From contig NC_053037.3 in assembly GCF_002575655.3 (NCBI RefSeq), positions 327,759,294-327,823,293 on the forward strand: a stretch of 64,000 nucleotides of DNA. The letters run 5' to 3'. Positions 776-62,537 of the stretch are shown here, in pieces. The stretch comes from Aegilops tauschii subsp. strangulata (Eukaryota > Streptophyta > Magnoliopsida > Poales > Poaceae). The position numbers were made by a program, and so were the translations under genes. The number at the start of each line of letters is the position of its first letter. Positions within the stretch are counted from its first letter, which is position 1. The notes under the pieces are model-generated. The model was not told where the DNA came from. It did no database searches and saw only the letters and a program-made list of their open reading frames with translations.

Positions 776-1556
776 TATTTTGCCGCTGCCCATCTTCTTG
801 TTTGTCCCGATGCGACGAGGAAGGTGCTGCTAAACGTCATCCGGCATCAGTATGACCAGGCGCCGATGCAGGTGGAGCGGGCCGGCTCGGACGAGGTGGG
901 GGTCCCGGGCAAGGACCCAGAGGAGACCGATGCCGAATCCGGCAAGGTGCGCCGCACGGGTAAGCTTTCGTGTTTGATTTCTCGAGACGCCAGTCGATGC
1001 CGGAGGTGTTGATGTAAGTTGATAACGCAGCGGCACCGAGTGGAGGAGGCGGCGACGCGGCAGCGGCCGGGTCGTCTCGCGTGGCGGTGGCTAGCCGGCC
1101 GCATGGGAAGGGGGACATGGCGCCCCGGAATCCGGCCATGAAGCGCACGGCGGACCCGGCGGCCAGCACGAAGGCGCCTGCCAAGAGGAGGCGCCGCAGT
1201 CCGCCGGCGGCACCGGCGAGGCCGACAATTCCGCTGGTGCCTGGGTGAGTTCTCTTCTATTTAATTCTGGCGAGTCGCCAAGTGGCTTCTCTTGGTTCTT
1301 GCTTTTTACTCCGTTGTGCTTCAGGTCGCCGATATCGCTGGCGTTGGCGGCGTTGGAGGCCGCGTCCATTGGTGGCGCCGTGTTCCGGAAAACACGGACC
1401 AGCGTCATCGACTGGGACGAGGAGATGGCCGATCCGGACCTTGGCCTGGACCAAGCCGACACCGAGGGCCTGGCCTGGCGGGACCGGAACAGGGCCGTGG
1501 CGGACATGGAGGAGGCATCAGCCCAGGCTTGAGCCAGGGCCGCGGTAGCGGGCCGG
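776..1556 (+). pseudogene. Unidentified coding fragment with an intact GT-AG intron
   Basis: I do not recognise the product. An open frame with an ATG at 1,117 runs to 1,244, meets a good donor (GTGAGT at 1,245), and resumes in the same frame after a TTCAG acceptor ending at 1,324. It stops with TGA at 1,530-1,532. The 80-bp intron leaves a 111-residue product with a basic stretch of four arginines (KRRRR) near residue 20 and an acidic, Asp/Glu-rich second half. The frame is open upstream of the ATG to about 1,018, so the true start may be earlier. A further donor-like GTAAG at about 960 suggests another exon at 776-959. The segment runs directly into chromovirus integrase at about 1,571, so it is either a captured host gene fragment or part of another element. 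Confidence 0.4.
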
Positions 1557-1570
1557 TGAGGAGCCGGCGT

Positions 1571-1921
1571 GACCCGAGATACGTGGGTCCTTTCAAGATC
1601 ATTGGGAAAAGAGGCGACCTAGCCTATCAACTTGAACTTCCTTCCAACTTTGCGAACGTGCACGATGTGTTCCACGTGTCACAGCTCCGCAAGTGCTTCA
1701 AGACGCCTGAGCGCACTATCAATTTCGAAGAGATTGACCTTCAAGAAGATTTGTCTTATCATGAGCACCCCGTTGCTATTCTTGAAGAAACTGAGCGCAA
1801 GACTCGCAACAAGTCTATCAAATTCCTGAAAGTGAAGTGGTCGCACCATTCCGACCGGGAAGCCACCTGGGAACGCGAGGACCATCTCCGGTCCGAATAT
1901 CCGGAGTTCTTTCAGTCCTAG
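1571..1921 (+). pseudogene. Chromovirus (Ty3/Gypsy) integrase C-terminus with chromodomain, 5'-truncated
   Basis: The frame encodes the conserved end of a Gypsy integrase. It has the RYVGPFKII motif near 1,575, the VHDVFHVSQLRK motif near 1,655-1,690, and a terminal chromodomain with KVKW and the EATWE core. It ends with TAG at 1,919-1,921. The chromodomain directs integration by binding chromatin marks and defines the chromovirus clade (Tekay-like). Everything upstream (gag, protease, RT, RNase H and most of the integrase) is missing: the homology begins abruptly at about 1,571, joined to unrelated coding-like sequence. The 3' LTR of the same element starts 36 bp after the stop, which confirms that this is the terminal part of that element. 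Confidence 0.85.
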
Positions 1922-2493
1922 ATCTCGGGACGAGATCCTCTCGTAGTGGTGGAGTGTTGTAACACCCCGCATGTAACTTGCCATATTTGTAACTCCGACT
2001 CTTGCCATTTCCGGCTATGTGTTTTGTTTTTCCCTCCGTTGTCGGGTTTTTGTCTTTCGTTTTGTATTTTTTCATGTCATGCATTTTCTTATCATGTCAT
2101 CATGGGCATTGCATTCGCATACGTGTTTGTCTCATGCATCCGAGCATTTTTCCCGTTGTCCGTTTTCCAATCCGGCGCTCCTATCTCCTCCGGTGCACCC
2201 CTCTAGTTTTCTTTCGTGTGCGTGTGTCAAACTTTCTCGGAATGGACCGAGGCTTGTCAAGTGGTCTTATTATACCACCCGGAGACTACCGGTCAAGTTT
2301 CGTTCCATTCGGAGGTCGTTTGGTACTCCAACGGTTAACCGGGCCTCCGCTATGTCCATTTGAGTATCCAGCAAAAACCCCCTCCAAAACCAGCCCAAAG
2401 CCCACCAAACTCTCTTCCATGCTCTAGGTCGTTCGATCACGATCGTGTGGGCGAAAACCGCACCTCATTTGGAGTCTCCTAGCTCCCTCTACC

Positions 2494-2502
2494 TATTTAT
2501 AT
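2494..2502 (+). promoter_or_regulatory. TATA-like box of the chromovirus LTR promoter
   Basis: TATTTATAT lies about 40 bp upstream of the GC-rich block of the LTR. The corresponding place in the solo LTR (about 14,525-14,545, minus strand) has a very similar CTACCTATTTAAATG context. This fits the LTR core promoter. It is an inference from motif and position only. Confidence 0.5.
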
Positions 2503-4530
2503 GTGGGCATCCCGAAAACGAAATCGCAGTCTCCCGTAACCCTAAATCGCCTCTCCGCGGGCGGACGTGTCCAGCCGCCGCCGGACGAAACGCGCCGCCG
2601 CTCCCGGCCAGTGGCATCGCGCCACGTCACCCCGCCGCCGTCTCCACCGCGCCAGGCCCGCTGGGCCCGGATCGGGCCCGCGGGGCCCATCTCCGCCGCC
2701 GCGCGCCCGCGCCTCCCCGCGCGCCCGCTGCCGCCGGCCATCGCCCGTCCCCGCCGCCGCGCACCTGCCCCGCCGCCGGGCGCCGCCTCCGCCGCCGCTT
2801 CCCCACCGCCGGCCATCGCCGCCGCCGCGGCGCCCGTCCCCGCCGCCGCGCGCCCGCCACCGGCGCTCGCCGCCCCGCCGGCGACCCCCCTCCTCCGGCG
2901 CCGCCTCTCCTCCCTCGGCCCTCCCCTCCTCCGGCCAGGCCTCGCCGGCCACTGCCTCGCCGCCGGAGCCGAGCCCGACCTCCGGCCCAGATCCGATCGA
3001 GCGGTAGCCTCCCCGTTGACTTCCCTCGCCCTAATATTTTCTAAGTCCCAGATTTTTCTCAGCATATGCTCCTGTTCCCGATGCCGTAACTTTGTGCATG
3101 TAGCTCCGATTCGCGCATATAATATGTCAAATTGTTCGCCGCGTGATGCTCTTTATTTTGTTCAATTGCACCATTTTCATTAGAGGTCATCTTGATACCC
3201 AAATCTTCGTTGGAAGAGGGCTAGTTGCTGTTAATCTCTGGTACTTATCAGAACTTGGAGATTTGTCATTTTTGTATCTTTTATTCTGTGCATTTTTGAG
3301 CATGAGATCTACATGTGTTTTGAAGTATGCCATGCCATCTTTCCAGTGGTATAGTCCATGTATTTTGGTGATCTATGTGGTGACTAGCACAAGCATGCAA
3401 AGTAGGTCCCGTAATATTTCTGATTTCAGGGACTTAGTGATTTCTCTAAGTCTTTGTCTGCTGTAATTTTGTTGCCATGTAAACTTGATGCTACAGAGAG
3501 ATCCATGCATATTTTGGAGATGTTCAGTAAGGATGTTTTGTAGATATAGTTGTAATTGATCCATTCCTGCAATTGTTTGCAATTTTAGAGTACCATAGCA
3601 TGACTCAATCTTGCTCTACTTTTGCTATAAAATATTTCTGGCAGATTCTTAACATGACATGCATTTTTGCCAAGCTTATTGTAGTTGATCCACACATGCT
3701 ATGTAATTGTACTTGCCATGGATAGCTTCTTAAACATGCCATCTTGCTGTAGGTATGCTTGGTTTTTCATGCATTGCTCTGTAGTGAGTGCATCAAGCTC
3801 ACCAAGAGGCCTACATATTAATATTTTTGCCATGCTCTGTTTTCTGCTAAGTCTGAAATCTGATAACGAAACTTGCTATGTTTACATGCTTGCCATCATA
3901 TCCTCTGGTCCTTTTTGGCTTATGGTCAGTAAGGGACTTTTGTCATGTGCATCTAGAAGAACACTACCATGCCTTGTTTTGCTATGTTAAGTTCCTGTAG
4001 CATGTTGATTTCGTGCTCTGAACATTGCTACCTGATGCTGATTTCTGCCATGTCCAGTTTTTCACCAAGTCTGTGAACCTGTAATCTTTTGCACTATTGC
4101 CATGCTTGTTTGAGCTTGATATGTTCTGAACTAGCAGTAGCTCAGTGTTCATCTTTTGTCAAGCATTTCCTGTAGATTACTACCATGTGCTTTGTTGCCA
4201 TGTTGGGGTGCTGTAGCATTGTTACTTGTTGCATTTTAAGTGCTATCTTGCTGTTTATCGCAGATTATTGTCATTCTTGTTTTGCTTGCCATTTGCAAAC
4301 CGTGCATCCGATTCCGGTGATCTTTATATCGATTTCGACCGAAATCATCTCATCTTTCCAGTGGCATGCTTGGTTTGTCAATTTACTGCCATGTTCATCA
4401 TTTTCCTTCCGGAGCACGCATATGCCTCACATATCATAACTTGCATATCATACATGTCTTGCATCATGTTGCTTGCGCATTTCTCGTTGTTGATTGTGGT
4501 TCCATTTGTTTGTATTCTTGTCTTGGGTAG

Positions 4531-5953
4531 AGCCGGGAGACGAGTTCGTGAACGAGGAACCTGTCGAGTACACTTACGAGGATCAAGCTTTCGACAACTC
4601 TGAGAATCTTGCAGGCAAGATGACCACCCCTCGAAATCACTTCTATCTTTGCTATGCTAGTTGTTCGCTCTATTGCCATGCTCCGCTACCTATCACTTTC
4701 TATATCATGTCTCCTATTTTAGCCATGTCAGCCCCTAACCATCCTTTCCTAGCAAACCATTGTTTGGCTATGTTACCGCTTTTGCTCAGCCCCTCTTATA
4801 GCGTTGCTAGTTGCAGGTGAAGTTGAAGTTTGTTCCATGTCGGAACATGGATATGTTGGGATATCACAATATCTCTTATTTAATTAATGCATCTATATAT
4901 TTTGGTAAAGGGTGGAAGGCTCGGCCTTATGCCTGGTGTTTTGTTCCACTCTTGCCGCCCTAGTTACTGTTATACCGGGATTATGTTCCTTGAGTTTGCG
5001 TTCCTTACACGGTCGGGTGATTTATGGGACCCCCTTGACAGTTCGCCTTGAATAAAACTCCTCCAGCATGGCCCAACCTTGGTTTTACCAGTTGCTACCT
5101 AAGCCTTTTCCCCCGGGTTTTCGCGAGCCCGAGGGTCATCTTATTTTAACCCCCCCGGGCCAGTGCTCCTTCGAGTGTTGGTCCAAACTGAGCAGACTGC
5201 GGGGCCACCTCCTGGAAACTCGAGGTCTGGTTTTACTCGTAGGATGTCTCATCCGGTGTGCCCTGAGAACGAGATATGTGCAGCTCCTATCGGGATTTGT
5301 CGGCACATTCGGGTGGCTTTGCTGGTCTTGTTTTACCATTGTCGAGATGTCTTGTAAACCGGGATTCCGAGACTGATCGGGTCGTTCCGGGAGAAGGTTT
5401 ATCCTTCGTTGACCGTGAGAGCTTATGATGGGCTAAGTTGGGACACCCCTGCAGGGTAATATCTTTCGAAAGCCGTGCCCGCGGTTATGAGGCAGATGGG
5501 AATTTGTTAATGTCCGGTTTTAGACAACTTGTTACTTGACCCAATTAAAATACACCAAGTGCGTGTGTAGCCGTGATGGTCTCTTCTCGGCAGTATCCGT
5601 GAAGTGAACACGGTCTGTGTTATGTTTGACGTAAGTAGGTGTTCAGGACCTCTTCTTGGTCATCGCTAGATGACGCTCGTTCCATTGCTTCTCTTCTCGC
5701 TCTCATTTGCGCAAGTTAGCCACCATATATGCTTTTGCCGCTGCAGCTCCACCTCTTTGCACCTCTTTGTCCTATAAGCTTAAATAGTCTTGATCTCGCG
5801 GGTGTGAGATTGCTGAGTCCCCGTGACTCACAGATACTTCCAACACCAGTTGCAGGTGCCGACGATGCCAGTGCAGATGATGGCGTCGATCTCAAGTGGG
5901 AGTTCGACGAGGAACGTGGTCGTTACTATGTGTCTTTTCCTGATGATCAGTAG
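4531..5953 (+). CDS. LTR-borne spliced acidic reading frame, last two exons (copy 1)
   Basis: I do not recognise the product. Exon A (4,531-4,614, 84 bp) follows a GGGTAG acceptor and reads [10 protein letters not shown] onward. It ends CTTGCAG before a GC donor (GCAAGA at 4,615). Exon B (5,856-5,953, 98 bp) follows TTGCAG and reads ADDASADDG onward through YYVSFPDDQ to a TAG. The 1,241-bp intron splits a glycine codon after its first base, and the joined frame is open. The product tail is strongly acidic. The same exons, phases and GC-AG intron recur in the other two long LTRs of this window (11,185-12,607 and 59,137-60,554). Upstream exon(s) were not resolved; the GC-rich block at 2,540-3,000 is the likely place. 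It could instead be an LTR exon spliced to gag, but the stop inside the LTR argues against that. Confidence 0.5.
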
Positions 5954-6234
5954 TGGTGCCCAGTTGGGACGATCGGGGATCTAGCATTTGGGGTTGTCTT
6001 ATTTTCATCTGGATTTTGACCGTACTCGGTCTATATGATTGTAATTTGGATGATGTATGAATGATATTTATGTATTGTGTGAAGTGGCGATTGTAAGCCA
6101 ACTCTTTATCCCATTCTTGTTCATTACATGGGATTGTGTGAAGATGACCCTTCTTGCGACAAAACCACTATGCGGTTATGCCTCTAAGTCGTGCCTCGAC
6201 ACGTGGGAGATATAGCCGCATCGTGGGCGTTACA

Positions 6235-10903: not shown

Positions 10904-13900
10904 TGTAACGCCCACGATGCGGCTATATCTCCCACGTGTCGAGGCACGACTTAGAGGCATAACCGCATAGTGGTTTTGTCGCAAGAAGGGTCATCTTCAC
11001 ACAATCCCATGTAATGAATAAGAATGGGATAAAGAGTTGGCTTACAATCGCCACTTCACACAATACATAAATATTATTCATACATAATCCAAAATACAAA
11101 CATATAGACCGACTACGGTCAAAATCCAGATGAAAATAAGACAACCCCAAATGCTAGATCCCCGATCGTCCCAACTGGGCTCCACTACTGATCATCAGGA
11201 AAAGACACATAGTAACGACCACGTTCCTCGTCAAACTCCCACTTGAGATCGACCCCATCATCTGCACTGGCATCGTCGGCACCTGCAACTGTTTTGGTAG
11301 AATCTGTGAGTCACGAGGACTCAGCAATCTCACACCCGCGAGATCAAGACTATTTAATCTTAAAGGAAAGGAAGGTGTAATGAGGTGGAGCTGCAGCGGC
11401 AAAAGCATATATGGTGGCTAACATACGCACAAGAGAGCGAGAAGAGAAGCAACGGAACGGTCGTCATCTAGCAATGACCAAGAAGTGATCCTGAACTCCT
11501 ACTTACGTCATACATAACACAGACCGTGTTCACTTCCCGGACTCCGCCGAGAAGAGACCATCACGGCTACACTCGCGGTTGATGTATTTTAATTGGGTCA
11601 AGTGACAAGTTCTCTACAACCGGACATTAACAAATTCCCATCTGCCTCATAACCGCGGGCACGGCTTTCGAAAGATAATACCCTGCAGGGGTGTCCCAAC
11701 TTAGCCCATCATAAGCTCTCACGGTCAACGAAGGACAAACCTTGTCCCGGAAAGACCCGATCAGTCTCGGAATCCCGGTTTACAAGACATTTCGACAATG
11801 GTAAAACAAGACCAGCAAAGCCACCCGAATGTGCCGACAAATCCCGATAGGAGCTGCACATATCTCGTTCTCACGGCACACCGGATAAGACAAGCTACGA
11901 GTAAAACCAGACCTCGAGTTTCCCCGAGGTGGCCCCGCAGGCTGCTCGGTTCAGACCAACACTCGAAGGAGCACTGGCCCGGGGGGGTTAAAATAAAGAT
12001 GACCCTCGGGCTCGCGAAAACCCGGGGGAAAAGGCTTAGGCGGCAAATGGTAAAACCAAAGTTGGGCCTTGCTGGAGGAGTTTTATTCAAGGCGAACTGT
12101 CAAGGGGGTCCCATAAATCACCCGACCGCGTAAGGAACGCAAACTCAAGGAACATAATACCGGTATAACAGTAACTAGGGCTGCAAGAGTGGAACAAAAC
12201 ACCAGGCATAAGGCCGAGCCTTCCACCCTTTACCAAATATATATAGATGCATTAATTAAATAAGAGATATTGTGATATCCAAACATATCCATGTTCCGAC
12301 ATGGAACAAACTTCAACTTCACCTGCAACTAGCAACGCTATAAGAGGAGCTGAGCAAAAGCGGTAACTTAGCCAAACAACGGTTTGCTAGGAAAGGATGG
12401 TTAGAGGCTGACATGGAAAAATGAGAGACATGATATAGCAAGTGATAGGTAGCGTAGCATGGCAATAGAGCGAACAACTAGCAAAGCAAAGATAGAAGTG
12501 ATTTCGAGGGGTGGTCATCTTGCCTGCAAGGTTCTCAGAGTTGTCGAAAGCTTGATCCTCGTAAGCGTACTCAATAGGTTCCTCGTTCACGAACTCGTCT
12601 CCCGGCTCTACCCAAAACAAGAACACAAGCAACGGAACCACAATCAATCACGAGGAATGCACAAGCAACATGATGCAAAACATGTATGATATGCAAGACA
12701 TGATGCGCGATGCATATGCGTGCTCCGGAAGGAAAATGATGAACAATGCAGTAACTTGGCAAACCAAGCATGCCACTGGAAAGATGAGATGATTTCGGTC
12801 GAAATCGATATAAAGTTCACCGGAAACGGATGCACGGTTTGCAAATGGCAAGCAAAACAAGAATGACATGAATCTGCGATAAACAGCATGATAGCACTTA
12901 AAATGCAATAAGTAACAATGCTACAGCACTCCAACATAGCAACAAAGCATATGACAGTAATCTACAGGGGATGCTTGACAAAAGATGAACACTGAGCTAC
13001 GGCTAGTTCACAACATGTCAAGCTCAAACAAGCATGGCAAAAGTGCAAAAGATAACAGGTTCACAGACTTGGTGAAAAACTGGACATGGCAGAAAACATC
13101 ATCAGGTAGCAATGTTCAGAGCACGAAATCAACATGCTACAGGAACTTAACATAGCAAAACAAAGCATGGAAATGTTCTACTAAATGCATATGACAAAAT
13201 CCCTTACTGACCATAAGCCAAAAAGGACTAGAAGATATGATGGCAAGCATGTAAACATTGCAAGTTTCGTTATCAGGTTTCAGACTTAGCAGAAAACAGA
13301 GCATGGCAGAAATAATAATATGAAGGCCTCTTTGTGGGCTTTATGCACTCACTACAGAGCAATGCATGACAAAACAATCATACCTATAGTAAGATGGCAT
13401 ATTTATGAAGCTATCCATAGTAAGAACAATTGCATAGCATGTATGGATCAACTACAATAAGCTTGGCAAAAATGAATATCATGTTAAGACTCTGCCAGAA
13501 ATATTTTATAGCAAAGGTAGAGCAAGATTGAGTTATGCTATGGCACCCCATAATTGCAAACAAGGGCAGGATTGGATCAATTACAATAATAGCTACAAAA
13601 CATCCTTACTGAATATCTCCAAAATATGCATGGAACTCTCTGTAGCATCAAGTTTACATGGCAACGAAATAACAGCAGACAAGGGCAGGATTGGATCAAT
13701 TACGGAGCCTACTTTGCATGCTTGTGCTAGTTACCACAGAGATCACAAAAATACATGACATACACCACTGTAAAGATGGCATGGCATACTTCAAAACACA
13801 TGTAGAGCTCATGCCCATAAGATGCACATATTTAATGATACAAAAATGACAATTCTCCAAGTTTTGATAAGAACCAGCAGATAACAGCAACTAGCCCTCT

Positions 13901-15068
13901 TACAACAGAGATTTGGGCATCAAGATGACCTCTAACGAACATGGTGCAATTGAACAAAATGCAGAGCATCACGAGACGAACAATTTGACATATTACACAC
14001 GCGAAACGGAGCTATGCACAAAGAGTTATGCAATGAGGAACATGGCAATATGCTGTAACAGGGAAAAAAACTTGGAGAAATATGGGGGGTCGGGGAAAGT
14101 CAACGCTACAGTGGCGGATCGAGATCTGGGAAGAGATCGACCGAAGCTCGGGCTCGGGCTCGGCCTCGCCGGCGACGGAGGAGGAGAGGGAGGCCGCGGC
14201 CGGAGGGAGGCGCGCCGGTGGAGGGAGGCGCGGTGGTCGGTGCGGGCGGCGCCGGCGCCGGCGGCCAGGGCGCGCGGCGGCGGCCGACGAACAGGCGGCG
14301 ACGCGGGTCGGCGTGCGGAGCCGGGAGGCGGCGGCGGATCGGGCCGGGCGGGCCCCGCCTGGGCCCGGCGGGCCGGCGGCGCGGGGAGGAGAGAGAGGGA
14401 CAGGTGGCGGCGCGGGATTCGTCCGGGACGGCGGCGCAGACACGTCCGGCGGCGGGGAATTTCGTCCGGGCGCGAGGTGGAAGAAGGTAGGGTTTGGACG
14501 GCGATTCGTTTTTCGGGAGGGATGCATTTAAATAGGTAGAGGGAGCTAGGAGAGTCCAAATGAGGTGCGGTTTTCGCCCACACGATCGTGATCGAACGAC
14601 CTAGAGCATGGAAGAGAGTTTGGTGGGTTTTGGGCTGGTTTTGAGGGGGTTTTTTGCTGGACACTCAAATGGACATTGCGGATGCCCGGTTAACCGTTGG
14701 AGTACCAAACGACCTTCAAATGGAACGAAACTTGACCGGTAGTTTCCGGGTGGTATAATAAGGCCACTTGACAAGCATCGGTCCATTCCGAGAAAGTTTG
14801 ACACCCGCACACGAAATAGAACAAGAGGGGTGCACCGGAGGAGATAGGAGCGCCGGATTGCAAAACGGACAACGGGGAAAATGCTCGGATGCATGAGACG
14901 AACACGTATGCAAATGCAATGCACATGATGACATGATATGAAATGCATGACATGAACAAAAGCAAAACGAAAGACAAAACCCGACCACGGAGGGAATATC
15001 ATAACACATAGCCGAAAATGGCAAGAGTCGGAGTTACAAATATGGAAAGTTACATGCGGGGTGTTACA
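10904..15068 (-). mobile_element. Solo chromovirus LTR, same family as 1,958-6,234
   Basis: This 4,165-bp LTR reads TGTAACGCCCACG to GGGGTGTTACA on the plus strand and is flanked by GATCC on both sides (10,899-10,903 and 15,069-15,073). It splits the Copia RT/RNase H. It is the inverted counterpart of the LTR at 1,958-6,234, with long near-identical blocks: about 4% difference in the 190 bp after the exon-B stop, by eye. It has the same gene-like layout, read on the minus strand: TATA-like box near 14,530, GC-rich block 14,500-14,090, AT-rich middle, exon A at 12,607-12,524 and exon B at 11,282-11,185. Confidence 0.94.
11185..12607 (-). CDS. LTR-borne spliced acidic reading frame, last two exons (copy 2)
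   Basis: This has the same structure as at 4,531-5,953. Exon A is 12,607-12,524 (84 bp) and exon B is 11,282-11,185 (98 bp), joined across a 1,241-bp intron with a GC donor (GCAAGA) and an AG acceptor. Compared with copy 1, exon A has four base changes giving two conservative replacements (V to I, T to A). Exon B has two base changes, both silent, so the last 32 codons encode the same peptide ending FPDDQ. No frameshift or stop has entered either exon, although this solo LTR is dead as a mobile element. The overall exon divergence (6 of 182) is close to that of neighbouring LTR sequence, so selection is not proven by this pair alone. Confidence 0.5.
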
Positions 15069-17576: not shown

Positions 17577-18237
17577 TGTCGGGGATATACCCCACGGTAT
17601 GACCCGGCCGGAAGTATGACCCGGCCGGACTTGGCATTTCGCTGATGACCCGGCGGAGGACTAGCGACTCATGGGTCTGGCGGCTCATTGGTCAGACAGC
17701 TCATGAACCAGACGACTCATGGATGGCCCCGACGACGGGTCAGATAGAGGACAAGGCCCAAGGCCCAGAAGGCCGGCTCACGTTTATGATGGGCTGGCTT
17801 AAGAAGAAAGGGATGACGAATATTTCCTTTACAGGGAAGCAAGACCCGGACTTGTAATTAACTTGTAAGAGAAGATAGACTAGTCCTAGTCCTACTAGGA
17901 CTCCACATGTAACCCGCCCCTCTAACTTATATAAGGAGGGGCAGGGCTCCCCAAAGAGAGAGGGGGCAACAAGAAATAATCTCTAGGGCTAAACACCGAG
18001 AGCCGGCTTATGCGGCGACTCTCCCGTGATCATAATGAGACCTAGCCACAAACAGCATGTAGGGTTGTTACCGGATGATGTTTCCCGGGGCCCGAAGCTG
18101 TCTAAACCCTTGTCTTGTGCGTTGATCCGCCCTGCGTCTCTCATCCCAATCAACTCCTCTCAAGCTACTACATAGATGCGCTGGCCTCACGACTAAGTCC
18201 TCACGCTAAGGACATCTGCCGTGACAATTCCACGACA
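17577..18237 (+). repeat. 5' LTR of the non-autonomous LTR element
   Basis: The LTR starts TGTCGGGGATATACCCC and ends ATTCCACGACA. A TATA box (TTATATAAGG, 17,927-17,936) sits in its middle. Five substitutions separate it from the 3' LTR. Confidence 0.95.
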
Positions 18238-21200: not shown

Positions 21201-23936
21201 TATCTTATAAAGCTTTGAAGCTCTCAATATCCGGTTTACAAATTTCCGGTTCAAAAAGAGGTTGTCTCTCGCAAAGTTCGAGTTCTCAGGAAAAGTTAAA
21301 GGGACCAAAGAGAGTCTGTTACAAAGCACAACTCAAATATAGGTACCCTGCTTTAATGACCATTGGGAGCTGATCGTATTCGAATTTAGCTTAACCCTTT
21401 TGGTGTGACCCTGATCGTATTCGAATCAGAGTCGTTAAATATTTTCATGATCACTAGGGGGCTTCCTGTTCAAACATAGGTCGTATTCGAACCAAAGAGA
21501 ACATAGCTGTCGATACCCTTTTGATCGACACACTGCCGAGCTCATTGGGGAGTTTCTTGGTCATATTTGAACCATAAGTCAACCCCCTTTGGGAACCGAC
21601 GTGGATCGTATTCGAATCAGCGTCGTTAAACAACTCTCAAGGTCATTTGGGGGCTTCCTGTTCAAACATAGGTCGTATTCGAACCAAAGAGAACATAGCT
21701 GTCGGTACCCTCTTGATCAGCAACGCCAAAGCCACTAGGGGCTATATGATCGTATTCGAATCTTAGCTTAACCCCTTTGGGACGGTTTTCTGATCGTATT
21801 CGAATCAGAAGCCTCAAAAATTTTGAAGTCTCTTTTTGCAAATAATTTTTGGGATTTTATTTGAAAGCTCTTTTGAACACATCTAAAGTGTATATGAGTG
21901 GTTTCTATTTAAACCCGGCTTGATTTTCGATGATAAGTCGCCGGCTTATGACAATCATCATCTATGTGGAAGCATTGGCTTCTAAGGATTGGGTTATCAC
22001 ACTTACTGCACAGGTATCATAAGCCGGCAGTACAATTCCATATCACAGGTATGATATTGTTTATACATGATTATGTTTAAACTGGCCCTGGCTATGGACT
22101 TTAAGCCGCCGGTATGTTTTGAATTGCGCCATTGGAATCATGCGTGTATCAAAGATTGGGTTGTCACCCTTATCGTGCAGGTCATATAAACCGACAAATG
22201 CAAATTCAATATCACAAGTATGATATTATAGTTATGTTTCAAAGTTATGATTCATAACAGGCTTATCTGTGACTCCTTTTTTACACATCAGTGGTCATAT
22301 GTAAGATATTATGACCCGCCCTGCGGTAAACCGCCAAGGGTTCTTGTGATCTACTTGCGTGCAGGATAAGACTACATTTGGGTGGTTACCCGCCCTGGTT
22401 TTGACGTTAAGTCGCCAGGGCATATGTTGTTTAAACTTTGCAGGATTTACAGAGCTATGACTTACATAAATGATTAAATTCAAGCCCATCATCATAGATG
22501 GAAATTGGTGTCTCAAAAGGGTTATCAATTCTTGATTTTCTCAAAGGCTATAAGCCGCCGGGTTGTACAAATTCCAGCTTACAATGGAGACATATTAAGT
22601 CGCCATCGGCCAAGAGCCGCCGGGTATTTAAACTCCGGATTGACCTATCAGCAGATGAGGTATTCAAAGTCGCTTTGGCGCAATGGCTATTATTTTATCA
22701 ATGGATATGATTTATTCTACAATGGAAAGAATAGTCCCGAGTCGCTGCAGGCTTACGACCTGACACTTGGGGGCTACATTATTCAAATTGATATTACATC
22801 AAATATGCAAGTCCCATGTCACTGCCAGCATGCACCATGGCACTTTGGGGCTAATGCAAAGTCATTTTTTGCTCAAATTATTGAAGACCCGACTCATCAC
22901 ATTCTAAATGAGCCGGCCCTTAGGGGCTACCAATTGCTCCTGTCGAAAATTCAAGGTACACAAGCCTTAATCCATTATATTGAAAGATCCACTATTCAGT
23001 TGGTAGAGTACAAAGCTCTTAACCTTGTGGACGTGGGTTCAAGCCCCATGGTGGAGATTACATCATATACTGTTATTATCAATCAATCATATACAAAGTC
23101 CCAGCTCGGTAATATCTTACTGACCCGGCCCTTGGGGGCTACACGTTGCTGGTCAAGATTACATGATCATATTTACAAAGTCCCTGCTCATTATTGCATA
23201 ATGACCCGGCCCTTGGGGGCTACGCTGGTTGAAGTTTATATGAGCATGAGGCAATTACAAGTCCCAGGTTGCTGCAAGCATGACAACCCAGCACTTGGGG
23301 GCTACATAATATGGAGTATTCAGTTTTTACTAGTGACTGAGATGAACAATATGGATTTCTTCAAAGTGGCAGCATTTATATTGAAGCAAGTCTTAAGCCA
23401 TCACTTTGTTCTACTCAAGACTTGGGGGCTACAGGTATTATATTATTATCGAAGAAATATTTTCAAATTCTTTGTTTTGAGCAAACCAGATTGACCTGGC
23501 GTCACCAATCATTATGACCCTGTGTCTACAACCCGGCGTCATCAATAATCATGAACCGGCGTTGGCAACAATCATGACCCGGAATTATCAGCTTTTATAA
23601 CCCGACAATGGTGGTAATCATAAACCGGCAAGTTTTACATCTTCAAGCCGGCTGGATATCAGTTGAATATTTCAGAGACTAATATTTTTGTCAATTCGGA
23701 GCATTGAAAGCCAATTCAAATGGATTCTTTATTTACAAGAGCCAATATCAGCAAATGGATTATGAAGCTGGCGTATTGACCCGGATATTCCAGGAGAAAA
23801 TGTCAAGGACTCAAGGATGATCAGGTGCCGGTTTACAAGAATATTTAACCCGAAGCACAACCTGTCAAATTTGTTCTTGTGTTTATGTTGCAGGATCAGT
23901 TTAACATGGATAAATCCAAATTAAACTGGGGGCTAA

Positions 23937-24597
23937 TGTCGGGGATATACCCCACGGTATGACCCGGCCGGAAGTATGACCCGGCCGAACTTGGCATTTC
24001 GCTGATGACCCGGCGGAGGACTAGCGACTCATGGGTCTGGCGGCTCATTGGTCAGACAGCTCATGAACCAGACGACTCATGGATGGCCCCGACGACGGGT
24101 CAGATAGAGGACAAGGCCCAAGGCCCAGAAGGCCGGCTCACGTTTATGATGGGCTGGCTTAAGAAGAAAGGGATGACGAATATTTCCTTTACAAGGAAGC
24201 AAGACCCGGACTTGTAATTAACTTGTAAGAGAAGATAGACTAGTCCTAGTCCTACTAGGACTCCACATGTAACCCGCCCCTCTAACTTATATAAGGAGGG
24301 GCAGGGCTCCCCAAAGAGAGAGGGGGCAACAAGAAATAATCTCTAGGGCTAAACACCGAGAGCCGGCTTATGCGGCGACTCTCCCGTGATCATAATGAGA
24401 CCTAGCCACAAACAGCACGTAGGGTTGTTACCGGATGATGTTTCCCGGGGCCCGAAGCTGTCTAAACCCTTGTCTTGTGCGTTGATCCGCCCTGCGTCTC
24501 TCATCCCAATCAACCCCTCTCAAGCTACTACATAGATGCGCTGGCCTCACGACTAAGTCCTCAGGCTAAGGACATCTGCCGTGACAATTCCACGACA
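23937..24597 (+). repeat. 3' LTR of the non-autonomous LTR element
   Basis: This is the same length as the 5' LTR and 99.2% identical to it by direct comparison. It is preceded by the polypurine tract CTGGGGGCTAA at 23,926-23,936. Confidence 0.95.
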
Positions 24598-35900: not shown

Positions 35901-36895
35901 ATCAACCAACTCAAGCCCTTCAAACAATTCCTCTCTCCTGGCCATTTTTGGTCTGGGGGCTCGACATACTGGTCCCTTTCCCCCGCGCTGTCGGGGACTT
36001 TGAGTACTTGTACGTTGCAATCGACAAGTTCACAAAGTGGCCGGAGGTGGAAGCAGTGAGGAAGGTGACCGCACAGTCTGCCGTTAAGTTTTTCAAGGGG
36101 CTAGTCTGCTGTTTTGGTGTGCCAAACCGAGTCATCACCGACAACGGCACGCAGTTCACAAGCCACACCTTCATGCAATACATCCAAGACCTTGGCAGCA
36201 AGGTCTGTTTCGCTTCCGTGGCACACCCACGGAGCAACGGCCAGGCGGAGAGGGCAAATGCTGAAGTACTGCGAGGCCTGGGGACCAAGACTTTTGACAG
36301 GCTGCACAAGTGCAGAAGGCGCTGGATCGATGAATTGCCAGCGGTTCTTTGGTCAATCTGAACGACACCAAATCGAGCCACCGGCCAGACACCCTTCTCC
36401 CTCGTTTGCGGGGCAGAAGCAGTTCTCCCCACGGAACTCACATACGAGTCACCACGAGTGCTCGCTTATGATGAGCTTGAGCAAGAGCAATTGCGGCAAG
36501 ATGACGCAACGCTCCTCGAGGAAGATCGTCTTTGGGAGGCTGTGCGAGCAGCGCGCTACCAGCAAGCCTTGCGCCGCTATCATAGCCGCAAGGTTCATGC
36601 CCGAAGCTTTGAGGAAGGCGACCTTGTTCTTCGGCGCGTTCAGTCGGCCAAGAATTCCAACAAGTTGACGCCGAAGTGGGAAGGCCCTTATCGGGTAATA
36701 CGAGTCACCAGGCCTAGCGTAGTCCGCCTGGAGACCGAAGATGGTATTCCAGTGAGCAACTCCTGGAACATCAAACATCTTCGCAAGTTTTACCCACAAG
36801 GTGCGGTTGCCGGGCCTCCCGGGAAGCCACCCTTTTGTACAAGCCTTGCCGACAAGGCATGTAACCCTTTATACAAAGCCAGGCGCAGACCCTGA
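32926..36895 (+). pseudogene. G2: second Tat-like Gypsy pol (protease end to integrase), broken
   Basis: The frame starts inside the protease-RT linker (IVFDVSKIPLPYNGIIGRP near 32,945) and passes a Lys/Ser-rich spacer. It then gives RT (LCIDYTDINKACPKDPF near 33,680; YMDDIVVKT near 33,970), RNase H, a second RNase H-like domain (NNTAEYEGLLAGLRIA near 35,040; RGDSQLVV near 35,115), the integrase zinc motif CEACQFHS (about 35,870), VAIDKFTKWPE (about 36,015), TDNGTQF (about 36,138), NGQAERANA, and the tail GDLVLRRVQ to a TGA at 36,893-36,895. Breaks are a TAG at about 33,394, TGA at about 33,556, frameshifts around 33,835-33,860, TAA at 34,352 and TGA at 36,359-36,361. One 653-codon stretch (34,400-36,361) is still open. 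It is the same lineage as G1 but opposite in strand and clearly diverged. Confidence 0.92.
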
Positions 36896-39872
36896 GCATA
36901 AATAAATGAAGCGCTGGCGCCCTAAGTTTTAGCATGCATGCTGGGTTGAGTCCCTCCCTCGGTTAGGGTTGATAGTGCTTAGCGGCGACTAACCCCTAGC
37001 ATATGAGGTCGAGTATGCATCTTTATGTTCTTTCCCGTCCTTTTTAGGTTCACAGGATGCATGAACATCTCTGCTGGGCTGTTTGGAGGAAAGAGGACAG
37101 GCCGACGTCCCGACCCCGGCAAGCCAAGGTTGCCGGGGGCTGCAGACCCAAAGGTCCGACCGCAACAAGCCAAGGTCGCCGGGGGCTGCTGAACCAGATA
37201 AGTCTTTTATCCCCTAGTATGCATTCTAGTACATAATTGGGACATATGAAACCTCGTTTATTCCTAGACCACCGTGCTCCCCTTTTCCTGTACCCAAGAA
37301 TTATTCCCTGGGCCAGAACTTGGTTGTAGTGTGGTAGCGAGGAAGTAAACGAGAGGCCTAGACCTATTTCACTCCTGCCTCCGCCGAAAGCGTGAGTATG
37401 GTCATGATTGAAGTAGGGAAACGACAAGGCCTGTTGCCGGGCGTCGATGTTTATCTTAAAAATAACAAGGATTCACTCCTTGGCGCGGGTCTCACTCACG
37501 CACAAAGAACCCGACAAGCCCCCTTTTTCATTAATATGTTCCAAACAGCTACAGTTCATACAGAACGCAGGCGTGAGCCAGGGGATTACAAGATCTAAAT
37601 TTTACAAAGGCCCATAGGCTTAAAGACTAAAAAGAGATAAGGTGCATGTAATCCCTTTCTTGTCCCTCTCCTCAGGAAACAGAACAAGATAACGGGAGGG
37701 CAAAAAGAACGCCTAGGCGAGGCACGAGCACCAGAAGGCGCCAGGAGAGCATCCCGGCGGCCGCCCCAAAGAGAGGCTGGTGATGATAATGAAGGGAGAA
37801 GAGCTGGAAGACGAGGCAGTGGGCCGGCAATACGTGATGAAGGCGTCGGTCCCTGCGTACTCCGACTTGACGGCCCGCCACCCGCCTTCTTCGTCTTCTC
37901 CGGCCTCCCAAACCAGCCGCCCAAGGAGGCGACCCCGAGAAGTTCAAGGAGCTGGCAATGCAGATGGAGATGCTGCCGGCGGCGCCTTGGACGGCGCGTC
38001 CGACACCTAGTCGGCCCCGTCATCCTCCCGCCTGCTACCCTCGTCGTCGCTGTCGCTGTCCTCCTCATCACTCTCGCTCGAGGAAGAATCTTCATGATCG
38101 GAGGAGCTCTTTGGTCAATCTGAACGACACCAAATCGAGCCACCGGCCAGACACCCTTCTCCCTCGTTTGCGGGGCAGAAGCAGTTCTCCCCACGGAACT
38201 CACATACGAGTCACCACGAGTGCTCGCTTATGATGAGCTTGAGCAAGAGCAATTGCGGCAAGATGACGCAACGCTCCTCGAGGAAGATCGTCTTTGGGAG
38301 GCTGTGCGAGCAGCGCGCTACCAGCAAGCCTTGCGCCGCTATCATAGCCGCAAGGTTCATGCCCGAAGCTTTGAGGAAGGCGACCTTGTTCTTCGGCGCG
38401 TTCAGTCGGCCAAGAATTCCAACAAGTTGACGCCGAAGTGGGAAGGCCCTTATCGGGTAATACGAGTCACCAGGCCTAGCGTAGTCTGCCTGGAGACCGA
38501 AGATGGTATTCCAGTGAGCAACTCCTGGAACATCAAACATCTTCGCAAGTTTTACCCACAAGGTGCGGTTGCCGGGCCTCCCGGGAAGCCACCCTTTTGT
38601 ACAAGCCTTGCCGACAAGGCATGTAACCCTTTATACAAAGCCAGGCGCAGACCCTGAGCATAAATAAATGAAGCGCTGGCGCCCTAAGTTTTAGCATGCA
38701 TGCTGGGTTGAGTCCCTCCCTCGGTTAGGGTTGATAGTGCTTAGCGGCGACTAACCCCTAGCATATGAGGTCGAGTATGCATCTTTATGTTCTTTCCCGT
38801 CCTTTTTAGGTTCACAGGATGCATGAACATCTCTGCTGGGCTGTTTGGAGGAAAGAGGACAGGCCGACGTCCCGACCCCGGCAAGCCAAGGTTGCCGGGG
38901 GCTGCAGACCCAAAGGTCCGACCGCAACAAGCCAAGGTCGCCGGGGGCTGCTGAACCAGATAAGTCTTTTATCCCCTAGTATGCATTCTAGTACATAATT
39001 GGGACATATGAAACCTCGTTTATTCCTAGACCACCGTGCTCCCCTTTTCCTGTACCCAAGAATTATTCCCTGGGCCAGAACTTGGTTGTAGTGTGGTAGC
39101 GAGGAAGTAAACGAGAGGCCTAGACCTATTTCACTCCTGCCTCCGCCGAAAGCGTGAGTATGGTCATGATTGAAGTAGGGAAACGACAAGGCCTGTTGCC
39201 GGGCGTCGATGTTTATCTTAAAAATAACAAGGATTCACTCCTTGGCGCGGGTCTCACTCACGCACAAAGAACCCGACAAGCCCCCTTTTTCATTAATATG
39301 TTCCAAACAGCTACAGTTCATACAGAACGCAGGCGTGAGCCAGGGGATTACAAGATCTAAATTTTACAAAGGCCCATAGGCTTAAAGACTAAAAAGAGAT
39401 AAGGTGCATGTAATCCCTTTCTTGTCCCTCTCCTCAGGAAACAGAACAAGATAACGGGAGGGCAAAAAGAACGCCTAGGCGAGGCACGAGCACCAGAAGG
39501 CGCCAGGAGAGCATCCCGGCGGCCGCCCCAAAGAGAGGCTGGTGATGATAATGAAGGGAGAAGAGCTGGAAGACGAGGCAGTGGGCCGGCAATACGTGAT
39601 GAAGGCGTCGGTCCCTGCGTACTCCGACTTGACGGCCCGCCACCCGCCTTCTTCGTCTTCTCCGGCCTCCCAAACCAGCCGCCCAAGGAGGCGACCCCGA
39701 GAAGTTCAAGGAGCTGGCAATGCAGATGGAGGTGCTGCCGGCGGCGCCTTGGACGGCGCGTCCGACACCTAGTCGGCCCCGTCATCCTCCCGCCTGCTAC
39801 CCTCGTCGTCGCTGTCGCTGTCCTCCTCATCACTCTCGCTCGAGGAAGAATCTTCATGATCGGAGGAGCTCT
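36346..39872. repeat. Direct tandem duplication, 1,762-bp unit
   Basis: Copy 1 (36,346-38,107) and copy 2 (38,108-39,869) are in direct repeat with an offset of 1,762 bp. I found two differences: C/T at 36,726/38,488 and A/G at about 37,969/39,731. Each unit holds the last about 180 codons of the G2 integrase, the G2 3' noncoding region and the 3' end of the antisense B3-like gene. At the junction, the three bases TCT (38,108-38,110) are shared by both breakpoints. The duplication leaves a second, headless integrase tail (38,108-38,657) and a headless B3-gene tail. Confidence 0.93.
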
Positions 39873-58838: not shown

Positions 58839-61800
58839 TGTGACGCCCCCGATTTGACCGTACACTACTCATGCACGCAAATGTGTACGATCAAGATCAG
58901 GGACTCACGGGAAGATATCACAAGACAACTCTAAAACATAAATAAGTCATACAAGCATCATAATACAAGCCAGGGGCCTCGAGGGCTCGAATACAATTGC
59001 TCGATCACAGACGAGTCAGCGGAAGCAACAATATCTGAGTACAGACATAAGTTAAACAAGTTTGCCTTAAGAAGGCTAGCACAAACTGGGATACAGATCG
59101 AACGAGGCGCAGGCCTCCTGCCTGGGATCCTCCTAACTACTCCTGGTCGTCGTCAGCGGCCTGCACGTAGTAGTAGGCACCTCCAGTGTCGTAGGTGTCG
59201 TCGTCGACGGTGGCGTCTGGCTCCTGGACTCCAACATCTGGTTGCGACAACCAGAAAGATAGGAAAGGGGAAAAAGGGAGAGAAGCAACCGTGAGTACTC
59301 ATCCAAAGTACTCGCAAGCAAGGAGCTACACTACATATGCATGGGTATATGTGTAAAGGGGCATATCAGTGGACTGAACTGCAGAATGCCAGAATAAAAG
59401 GGGGATAGCTAGTCCTGTCGAAGACTACGCTTCTGGTCATCTCCATCTTGCAGCAGGTAGAAGAGAGTAGATTGAAGTCCTCCAAGTAGCATCGCATAGC
59501 ATAATCCTACCCGGCGATCCCCTCCTCGTCGCCCTGTTAGAGAGCGATCACCGGGTTGTATCTGGCACTTGGAAGGGTGTATTTTATTCAGTATCCAGTT
59601 CTAGTTGTCATAAGGTCAAGGTACAACTCCGGGTCGTCCTTTTACCGAGGGACACGGCTATTCGAATAGATAAACTTCCCTGCAGGGGTGCACCACATAA
59701 CCCAACACGCTCGATCCCATTTGGCCGGACACACTTTCCTGGGTCATGCCCGGCCTCGTAAGATCAACGCGTCGCAGCCCCACCTAAGCACAACAGAGCG
59801 GTCAGCACGCCGGTCTAACCCTATGCGCGCAGGGGTCTGGGCCCATCGCCCTATGCACACCTGCACGTTGCGTACGCGGCCGGAAGCAGACCTAGCCTAG
59901 TGGCGTTCCAGTCCAATCCGGCGCGCGCCACTCAGTCGCTGACGTCAAGAAGGCTTCGGCTGATACCACGACGCCGGGATACCCATAACTACTCCCGCGT
60001 AGATGGTTAGTGCGTATAGACCAAATGGCCAGACTCAGATCAAATACCAAGATCTCGTTAAGCGTGTTAAGTATCCGCGAACGCCGACCAGGGCCAGGCC
60101 CACCTCTCACCTAGGTGGTCTCAACCTGCCCTGTCGCTCCGCCACAAAGATCCACTTGCGGGTACTCCTACGAGCCGACCCGACTTTAGTCATCACATGT
60201 GTCATGTATGTAGTATATAAGTATATACCCGTGATCACCGCCCAGGCGATCACGGCCCGATAGTATAGCACAGCAGACGGACAAGAATGTAGGGCCACTG
60301 ATGGAAATCTAGCATCCTATACTAAGCATGTAGGATTGCAGGTAAAGGTAACAACAGTGGTAGCAAGGATAGGCTATGCATCAGGATAGGATATCGGAAA
60401 ACAGTAACATGCTACACTACTCTAATGCAAGCAGTATAGAGAAGAATAGGCGATATCTGGTGATCAAGGGGGGGCTTGCCTGGTTGCTCTGGCAAGTAGG
60501 AGGGGTCGTCGACTCCGTAGTCGAACAGGGCAGCAGCAGTGTCGGTCTCGTAGTCTACCGGAGAGAAGAGGGGGAAGAAACAGTAAATACAATGCAAACA
60601 TAAGCATGACGATGTGTGACATGACAATGAACGGTGCTAGGTGTGTCCTAACGCGACAGTAGGTGGTACCGGCGAAGGGGGGGAACATCCGGGAGGTATT
60701 CCCGATGTTTCGCGTTTTCGGACAGACGGACCGGAGGGGGAAAGTTGCTAGTTCGATAGGTTAGGGAGGTGTGGTGGACGAACGGACTGCGTATTCGGAT
60801 TCGTCTCGTCGTTCTGAGCAACTTTCATATAGAAAACATTTTCATCCGAGTTACGGTTTAAAAGATATGAATTTTCAAAGATTATTTGAATTTCTGGAAT
60901 TGTTTAATTAACAGAAAAGGGATATGACGTCAGCATGACATATGAGTGACGTCAGCGGTCAACAGTCCGGTTGACTGGTCAAAACTGACACGGGGGACCC
61001 ACCTGTCATAGACAGTGGGTTAACAGAAGATTAAACTAATTAATTTTTAGTTAATTAACTACTGGGCCCACCTGTCAGTGAGTGATTAGATTAATTAATT
61101 ATTTTTATTTATAAAACATTTTCCTTTTCTTTTCTTTTTTTTATTTTTGCGGCGGGGCCCGCATGTCAGTGGCTGGGCCTGCCCAGTCAGCACGTTGACT
61201 GGGTGGACCCAGTCAACGGGGCCCACGGGGCCCACTGGCAGTGGCCCTGGGGTGGCCCCAGGCCGGCCACGTCGGCGGCCGGCGCCGGAGCAACTCCGGC
61301 GACCAAAACGGCGGCGGCCCCTCGCCGGAGTTGGCCGGAATCGCGCTACGGGGCTCGGGGAGGAGCGGGGCTAGGCCCATTCGAAAGGGCTCGCAGCGCC
61401 GCATCCAGGGGTGGCCGGGGCTTCGCCGGACTTGGCCGGAATCGGCGCCGGCGAGCGGCGGAGGCGGCGGCGCGCACGGGTGCCCGACGGAAACGAGGCT
61501 ACGGCGGGTTATCGAGCAAGCGGAGGGGCTGGGGGCATCTACGCGAGGTGGGGAGTGCAACGGGCTTGAGCCCGTGACCATAAGGTCACCGGAGACCCGC
61601 CGGCGGCGAGCTCCGCGGCGCGGCGTTCGGGCGCGCGCGGGGAAGAAGCTAGGGGGCGCGCGAGAGAGAAAGGACAGGGGAGGAGGGGGGAAGAGGCTCA
61701 CCGCGCGGCACACGGAGGCCGGTGAGAGCTTAGGAGCAGCAGGTCGGCGCCGGGGAAGAAGGGGGTCGCCGGCGTCCGAAGTTGAAGACGAGCTCGGGGA

Positions 61801-62537
61801 GGCCGTTGCAGTGGCTCCGAGCTTCAACGGAGAGGCGGAGGTGGTGTAGTCGAGGGCGGCGACGGCGTATGACACGGCGAGGTGGCGATTGGGGCACGGT
61901 GGCCGTGTGAACGACGGGAACGGCGGCGAGCGCGTCGGGCGTGGGGAAGAAGAGAGCGGCGCGGATCTGGGGGAAAGAAGGAGGCGCAGGGGCCGAGAGG
62001 AGAGCGGGGCGAGTGGGAGAGAGGCCCGAGGAGGCGGGGGGGAGCTGGCGCCCTTATCCTCCCCGTCGCCGGCGAGGGGGTGCGGCGGGGACGGCCCCTG
62101 TTCCGACCCCGGTCGGGGGAACAGGGAAGGGGGCGAGGGGGAGTGGGAGATGGGCTAGGCCGGCTGGGCCGGGGGTCGGCCCAGTTGGGCCAGCGGTCCA
62201 GTGGGGGGAGGGCCTTCTCTCTTTTTTTTTGCCTGCTGTGTTCTTTTGCTTTTTCTTTTATTTGTTTATTTTCTTTTCTGTTTTATTTTATTTAAAAGTA
62301 TTTAGGTATTTTATAAAAATGTGTTTTCTTCACAATAATTATCAGTGCAATTTCTGGCAGGGCCCGAACATTTTTGTTTAAATTTTTAAAAACTTTTATT
62401 TTCCACTTTTAAATTTAATTGAAGTTTGAATTAGGAGTTTGAAAAGGAATGTGATTCAAATGTGATCAAGCCCTGTTTAGCAACATGATTAGCTTAATCA
62501 CAGAGGGTTATTGTAGCATGATCCTCACGGTGTTACA
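58839..62537 (-). mobile_element. 3.7-kb solo LTR, second long-LTR Gypsy family
   Basis: On the plus strand it runs TGTGACGCCCCCG to CACGGTGTTACA, flanked by ATTTG on both sides (58,834-58,838 and 62,538-62,542). In sense orientation (minus) it starts TGTAACACCGTGAGG. It shares the plan but little overall sequence with the LTRs at 1,958 and 10,904: a very GC-rich block in the first third (about 62,160-61,160), an AT-rich middle, and two short acidic exon-like segments near the 3' end. It is probably a related chromovirus family; with no internal region this is inference from LTR form. Confidence 0.92.
59137..60554 (-). CDS. LTR-borne spliced acidic reading frame, last two exons (second LTR family)
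   Basis: Exon A (60,554-60,480, 75 bp) follows CCGGTAG and reads YETDTAAALFDYGVDDPSYL onward. It ends ACCAG before a GC donor (GCAAGC). Exon B (59,237-59,137, 101 bp) follows CAACCAG and reads VGVQEPDATVDDDTYDTG onward through YYYVQAADDDQE to TAG. The 1,242-bp intron interrupts a codon after its first base, exactly as in the other family (1,241 bp). The two families' peptides differ greatly in sequence. Both are acidic and end in a YYV...DDQ pattern just before the stop. The function is unknown. Confidence 0.5.

Follow-up and report, generated by a model that had tools for sequence, protein, structure and literature searches.

Long LTRs of Triticeae chromoviruses probably hold a spliced mini-gene with an acidic-aromatic C-terminal module

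The window analysed here is a stretch of 64,000 nucleotides from Aegilops tauschii subsp. strangulata (contig NC_053037.3, positions 327,759,294 to 327,823,293). Three long LTRs lie within it (Table 1). LTR1 belongs to an element that extends past the left edge of the window. LTR1 and LTR2 are 88% identical over 4.3 kb and constitute one family (family 1). LTR3 represents a separate family (family 2). Upstream of LTR1 (window 1292-1918) Pfam identifies an SH3_Tf2-1 match (E 7e-17) and, at the integrase C-terminus, a chromodomain (Chromo PF00385, E 1.3e-5, 25.4 bits with a cut-off of 25.1). Family 1 is provisionally assigned to Tekay/Del from its LTR features. Family 2, seen in the window as a solo LTR, is provisionally tied to the Tekay/Del type by two features only, a shared intron block and the exon layout. 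A first look at the genome (4.10 Gb, 692 contigs) gave 5,229 family-1 candidates, solo or otherwise.

The window contains other repeats. Two head-to-tail copies of 1,765 bp (36346-38110 and 38108-39872) are 99.9% identical and reflect a recent tandem duplication. Direct repeats of 661 bp (17577-18237 and 23937-24597), which are 99.2% identical and 6.36 kb apart, are likely a young LTR pair. An Rfam tRNA match of 35 bits lies between this pair of repeats (22988-23056) and has no ARAGORN call.

Table 1. Features of the three long LTRs, with positions counted from the first letter of the window.
Feature	Positions	Strand	Remarks
LTR1, 3' LTR of a chromovirus (family 1)	1958..6234	+	TG...CA ends; Tf2-1-like SH3 and chromodomain just upstream
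TATA-like word TATTTATA of LTR1	2494..2501	+	putative role; TATA-like words found by pattern in other family-1 copies
Exon 1 of LTR1	2524..3003	+	GC-rich, AUG-free leader; putative start and donor (GT at 3004)
Intron 1 of LTR1	3004..4530	+	45 ATG; acceptor before AGCCGG from joined proteins
Exon 2 of LTR1	4531..4614	+	84 nt, phase 1, donor CAG/GCAAG
Intron 2 of LTR1	4615..5849	+	GC-AG, 1,235 nt; joined proteins hold the two extra residues of the upstream AG
Intron-2 block common to both families, LTR1	5426..5485	+	
Exon 3 of LTR1	5850..5953	+	104 nt, ends in stop
LTR2, family-1 solo LTR within a Copia reading frame	10904..15068	-	TSD GGATC (5 bp), read directly
Exon 3 of LTR2	11185..11288	-	upstream acceptor; genomic copy L029
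Exon 2 of LTR2	12524..12607	-	genomic copy L029
LTR3, family-2 solo LTR	58839..62537	-	TSD ATTTG (5 bp), read directly
Exon 3 of LTR3	59137..59237	-	101 nt, ends ...GGAYYYVQAADDDQE stop
Intron block common to both families, LTR3	59644..59707	-	
Exon 2 of LTR3	60480..60554	-	75 nt, donor CAG/GCAAG

The first-pass annotation had described two short exons around a GC-AG intron, in frame, with the same donor and a stop inside the LTR, and had reported that two LTR families share them. Both descriptions are borne out. The arrangement is present in all three LTRs of the window, with exons 2 and 3 and the stop inside the LTR, and is carried by LTR1 and LTR2 as well as by LTR3. Both exons are in phase 1 in both families. 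The donor CAGGCAAGA is kept in 57 of 58 family-1 copies, and CAGGCAAGC is kept in all ten family-2 copies picked by intron sequence.

The acceptor of family 1 lies 6 nt upstream of the one first proposed. The acceptor region of LTR1 reads CCAG/TTGCAG/GTGCC and offers two in-frame AGs. The first AG is used by all six joined family-1 proteins found in public databases (P0001-P0004, P0246 and P0248). Because all six hold the two extra residues that it supplies, exon 3 of LTR1 is taken to start there. The family-1 intron is thereby 1,235 nt rather than 1,241 nt and exon 3 is 104 nt rather than 98 nt, while the 84 nt given for exon 2 of LTR1 is correct. In family 2 the joined proteins mostly read ...LPEQP-DxG..., which matches the acceptor first proposed and an intron of 1,242 nt.

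Evidence for splicing comes from public proteins. With an E limit of 1, three protein searches gave 853, 230 and 3,023 matches, and the best 120 of each were pooled into 303 distinct proteins. Exon 2 is joined to exon 3 in 37 of these best matches: 31 of family 2, counted by pattern, and six of family 1, which the script pattern missed and which were counted by eye. Seventeen of the 37 are ENA sequences whose longest contigs, at 503-840 nt, are shorter than the 1.2-kb intron, and they therefore derive from spliced RNA or from copies of such RNA. The other 20 are named entries from T. urartu, Ae. tauschii, T. aestivum and Ae. geniculata, annotated as uncharacterized or hypothetical, and some of them may be predicted models. 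Judged from these database sequences, the joining of exons 2 and 3 across the GC-AG intron is well supported.

Most other family-1 matches reach exon 3 by reading through the intron. They do so in three frames, so the end of the intron shifts frame freely; the counts (68, 22 and 21 proteins, the class of 68 including the joined P0248) are descriptive only, as any match needs exon 3 in frame. Two single proteins differ from the common arrangement. P0286 of T. aestivum has the family-2 exon 2 twice in tandem. The ENA protein P0231 seemingly carries another N-terminal part on family-2 exon 3 without exon 2, possibly through exon skipping.

The module encoded by the two exons abounds in D/E and F/W/Y residues and, for the most part, lacks predicted structure. 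The AlphaFold model is of low confidence, with a mean pLDDT of 62.5; its one hairpin spans residues 50-63, and pLDDT is 86 over residues 51-60. No likeness of the hairpin to WW or OCRE hairpins is claimed. The acidic-aromatic tail may resemble activation domains or histone-binding tails. No relative of the module was found by sequence in Pfam (E up to 10) or PDB, and a degenerate pattern of the C-terminus gave no match in viral contigs.

The two families are probably homologous, as is suggested by a shared intron block, the same phase and donor, and aligned protein residues including YYV and D. A stretch of about 64 nt in the LTR3 intron aligns both with LTR1 (E 9e-5) and with LTR2 (E 2e-6), and its spacing from the donor is similar in the three LTRs. 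This block, CACCCCTGCAGGG...TTCGAA..AGCCGTG, is conserved across LTR families that are not alignable elsewhere.

Constraint on the family-1 frame was measured with all-pairs Nei-Gojobori counts, in which a codon was left out of a pair if it contained a gap or N in one copy or both. Among 66 genomic copies, part of which were ranked with exon-containing queries (exons are about 13% of the length) and so bring a mild bias, pN is 0.0221 and pS is 0.1002 (pN/pS 0.22). Without CpG transitions the values are 0.0165 and 0.0547 (ratio 0.30). The first-pass annotation had proposed a comparison with shifted frames, and in family 1 the difference is clear: the shifted frames give 0.98 and 2.07 (1.18 and 1.31 without CpG transitions). 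None of 54 intron pseudo-exons of equal length is as low as the exons, the minimum being 0.46 (0.42 without CpG transitions).

The result is similar in a set of 59 copies from which seven copies, taken from their position alone to be putative LTR pair-mates, were removed and which may retain other pairs, such as L055/L066 and L035/L039. Here pN/pS is 0.23 (codon bootstrap 0.14-0.42), or 0.35 (0.18-0.87) without CpG transitions, and none of 210 overlapping intron pseudo-exons is as low. Taken separately, exons 2 and 3 of these 59 copies each give 0.22 (0.42 and 0.28 without CpG transitions). The earlier caveat that the exons are not clearly more conserved than nearby LTR sequence is accurate for total divergence, but the differences gather at synonymous sites.

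The frame also stays open more often than the average intron window. It is intact in 57 of the 66 family-1 copies. The comparison set, 55 overlapping windows of the intron with an open frame in LTR1, stays open in a mean of 31.6 of the 66 copies (57 in the best window). The statement that no copy has a stop or frameshift is true of the three copies in the window; in the wider sample, nine of 66 genomic family-1 copies and one of ten fetched family-2 copies are broken.

Tests based on variant frequency and on a tree are less uniform. Variants found in at least five of 58 copies are six synonymous to two replacement, and rarer ones are 24 to 53 (one-sided Fisher p 0.02), a count in which recurrent CpG changes may imitate or inflate shared variants. 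With 29 copies, the exons have three shared and 24 rare variants and the intron 51 and 118; with 58 copies this contrast of exon and intron is not significant (p 0.08-0.16). Parsimony on a tree made from non-exon sequence gives 12 synonymous to 10 replacement changes on internal branches and 49 to 60 on terminal branches, which is not significant (p 0.28). None of 138 intron pseudo-exons reaches the internal synonymous fraction of the exons (0.55), and the Fisher p is as small as that of the exons in 22 of the 138. Purifying selection on the amino acids of the joined family-1 frame is supported by the pairwise counts, though not by every test.

Family 2 was sampled through ten copies, each fetched from the plus strand, out of 40 places that a search with only the intron had listed. 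These copies are young (99% identical in the intron), and nine of the ten keep the frame. With 11 copies pN/pS is 0.57, against 1.16 and 0.58 in the shifted frames, which is no clear sign of selection. Variants present in at least two copies, counted by eye, are one synonymous to four replacement. The family-2 data do not support selection, and the sample is too small to exclude it.

Downstream of the TATA-like box lies a block of high GC content that varies strongly among copies. In 21 family-1 leaders the GC fraction is 0.79-0.86 and the length 279-590, in agreement with the variable CpG-rich 5' block of Tekay/Del LTRs. Divergence between LTR1 and LTR2 peaks at this block, where 129 of 365 aligned sites differ, compared with 33 of 541 in the start of the LTR. 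In LTR1 the ATG count is 0 in the leader, 45 in intron 1, 0 in exon 2, 26 in intron 2, 5 in exon 3 and 10 in the tail. Across 22 leaders (LTR3 added with a putative start and donor, L024 left out for a 5' part unlike the others) there is one ATG where dinucleotide shuffles predict 11.2, and all 300 shuffle sets lie above the observed count, a statistic that is indicative in view of related copies and block ends set by a motif. As an observation on its own, the similarity of genomic copy L024 to LTR1 begins at nt 1510 of the LTR, and its promoter half is unlike that of LTR1.

The GC-rich block thus behaves, on these indicative counts, as a leader that avoids AUG. The GC-rich first exon that had been proposed fares well in this respect, the block being leader-like and AUG-poor; its start and donor, and the role of the TATA-like word, are putative. 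The larger claim, that the LTR is a complete small gene, is not supported. AUG is absent from 21 of the 22 leaders and from exon 2 of LTR1, so that the acidic frame of LTR1 has no AUG start within exons 1-2, and the N-termini of the joined proteins are mostly unrelated.

Most of these N-termini have no similarity to each other, and none has a match in the window or in the fetched loci. In P0002, P0246 and P0248 differing N-termini are joined exactly at EPGDE. Some family-2 N-termini are related (P0251/P0254, E 3e-7; P0253/P0258, E 9e-7; P0122/P0263, nearly identical), and an AUG-bearing exon may therefore exist in some subfamilies.

Two other candidates for the start were rejected. A start codon directly 5' of exon 2 is suggested by P0001, where MFLPWVEPGDE reads unspliced sequence, and this type of start is not general because LTR1 has GTA and LTR2 has GTG at that codon. 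A fusion of exon 2 to the start of Gag was considered as well. A stretch of copy L067 gave a Gag-like N-terminus, and no such start was seen by eye among the 37 joined proteins.

We consider it probable, while leaving real room for doubt, that long LTRs of Tekay/Del-type chromoviruses hold a three-exon mini-gene with an acidic-aromatic C-terminal module. Transcription would start at the TATA-like box of the LTR, and exon 1, GC-rich and free of AUG, would serve as the leader. Exon 2 is joined to exon 3 over the GC-AG intron, as the public sequences show, and the transcript would end within the LTR, 3' of exon 3. The product would carry a short, acidic, aromatic and mostly disordered C-terminal module ending in YYV..DDQ. 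Least certain is its use as an accessory protein of the element, which would require non-AUG initiation in the leader or, in some subfamilies, an upstream exon that supplies the AUG. Host transcripts could also take up the exons as a portable terminal exon. The place of the module in the LTR gives each element two copies of it and lets it survive in solo LTRs.

A different reading, which we regard as unlikely, is that the exons chiefly form an untranslated leader made by splicing. The AUG-rich introns would be removed so that Gag, or an RNA related to replication, is processed correctly, and the acidic frame would be a by-product of purine-rich exonic splicing signals (GAA/GAG/GAC). The distribution of AUG in LTR1, which is missing from the leader and exon 2 and plentiful in both introns, suits this reading. 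The first AUG of the Gag-like frame in one copy lies about 1.1-1.2 kb past the end of the LTR, and BARE offers a precedent in a spliced RNA class for Gag, where splicing favours Gag-only RNA (Chang et al. 2013, PMC3735527). However, the constraint is confined to one reading frame, and YYV and D residues are kept at the protein level in two families. A Gag leader would also have to avoid the AUGs that remain in exon 3 of LTR1 and in the LTR tail.

It is less likely still that the LTR is only a gene trap, supplying a strong acceptor together with cassette and terminal exons, into which upstream host or other exons splice, and with no role for the element. This would account for the unrelated N-termini that P0242, P0246 and P0248 join at the junction. 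The N-terminus of P0242 resembles a host secreted protein, and those of P0242 and P0246, both from Ae. tauschii, look like host exons, by eye only; a Pfam search of P0242, P0246 and P0248 gave no match. Seven T. urartu models (P0123, P0124, P0244, P0245, P0247, P0250 and P0259) lack an initiator Met, which also points to trapping. Trapping after insertion cannot, however, yield frame-specific constraint in a mobile lineage, and the interrelated N-termini of some family-2 proteins are expected of an exon that belongs to the element. Chance, in the form of open LTR frames with coincidental splice sites, is very improbable: sixty open codons are not rare by themselves and the window holds just two independent families, but the 37 joined proteins among the best matches, the family-1 constraint and the donor kept in ten of ten family-2 copies already disfavour it.

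The mini-gene reading can be taken further, in a form that we offer tentatively and hold with less conviction than the mini-gene itself. Grass chromovirus LTRs, solo LTRs included, might be small spliced genes for an acidic-aromatic accessory protein, with a non-AUG start in a GC-rich leader that changes rapidly. These exons might also have spread through the genome as C-terminal exons for host genes.

No description of a spliced frame inside a plant LTR was found among titles and the beginnings of abstracts, subscription journals being mostly outside the search. A comparable layout is known from retroviruses, where the MMTV superantigen and other LTR-encoded accessory proteins have a frame in the LTR and are expressed from spliced RNA. 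The likeness concerns the layout; host, size and start-codon arrangement differ. Among plant elements, Del LTRs have a 5' CpG island that varies and, in some groups, a 3' part that is better conserved (Cruz et al. 2014, PMC4029996). The LTRs presented here share the great length and the variable GC-rich 5' block. In that paper the block is treated as a CpG island, and its main text contains none of the terms ORF, open reading, intron or splic.

For plant LTR retrotransposons, extra ORFs have been counted when they reach at least 250 codons (Neumann et al. 2019, PMC6317226). The frame described here resembles them in being additional to the polyprotein. It differs in that it has about 62 codons, fewer than the at least 250 of an eORF, and in that it is split by an intron over two exons and lies within the LTR. 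As in Ogre, a plant Ty3/gypsy element with a regulated intron (cited in PMC6317226), an intron is present in a plant Ty3/gypsy element. As in BARE, a retrotransposon has spliced RNA; unlike in BARE, the junction and the stop are inside the LTR.

In plant retrotransposons, LTRs are commonly regarded as promoters and terminators. If the reading favoured here is true, solo LTRs need not be inert relics, and some "uncharacterized proteins" of Triticum and Aegilops would be LTR products or fusions to LTR products. The elements would own an accessory protein with a testable target in chromatin, transcription or RNA. This could explain why part of the LTR is conserved alongside the turnover of the GC-rich block.
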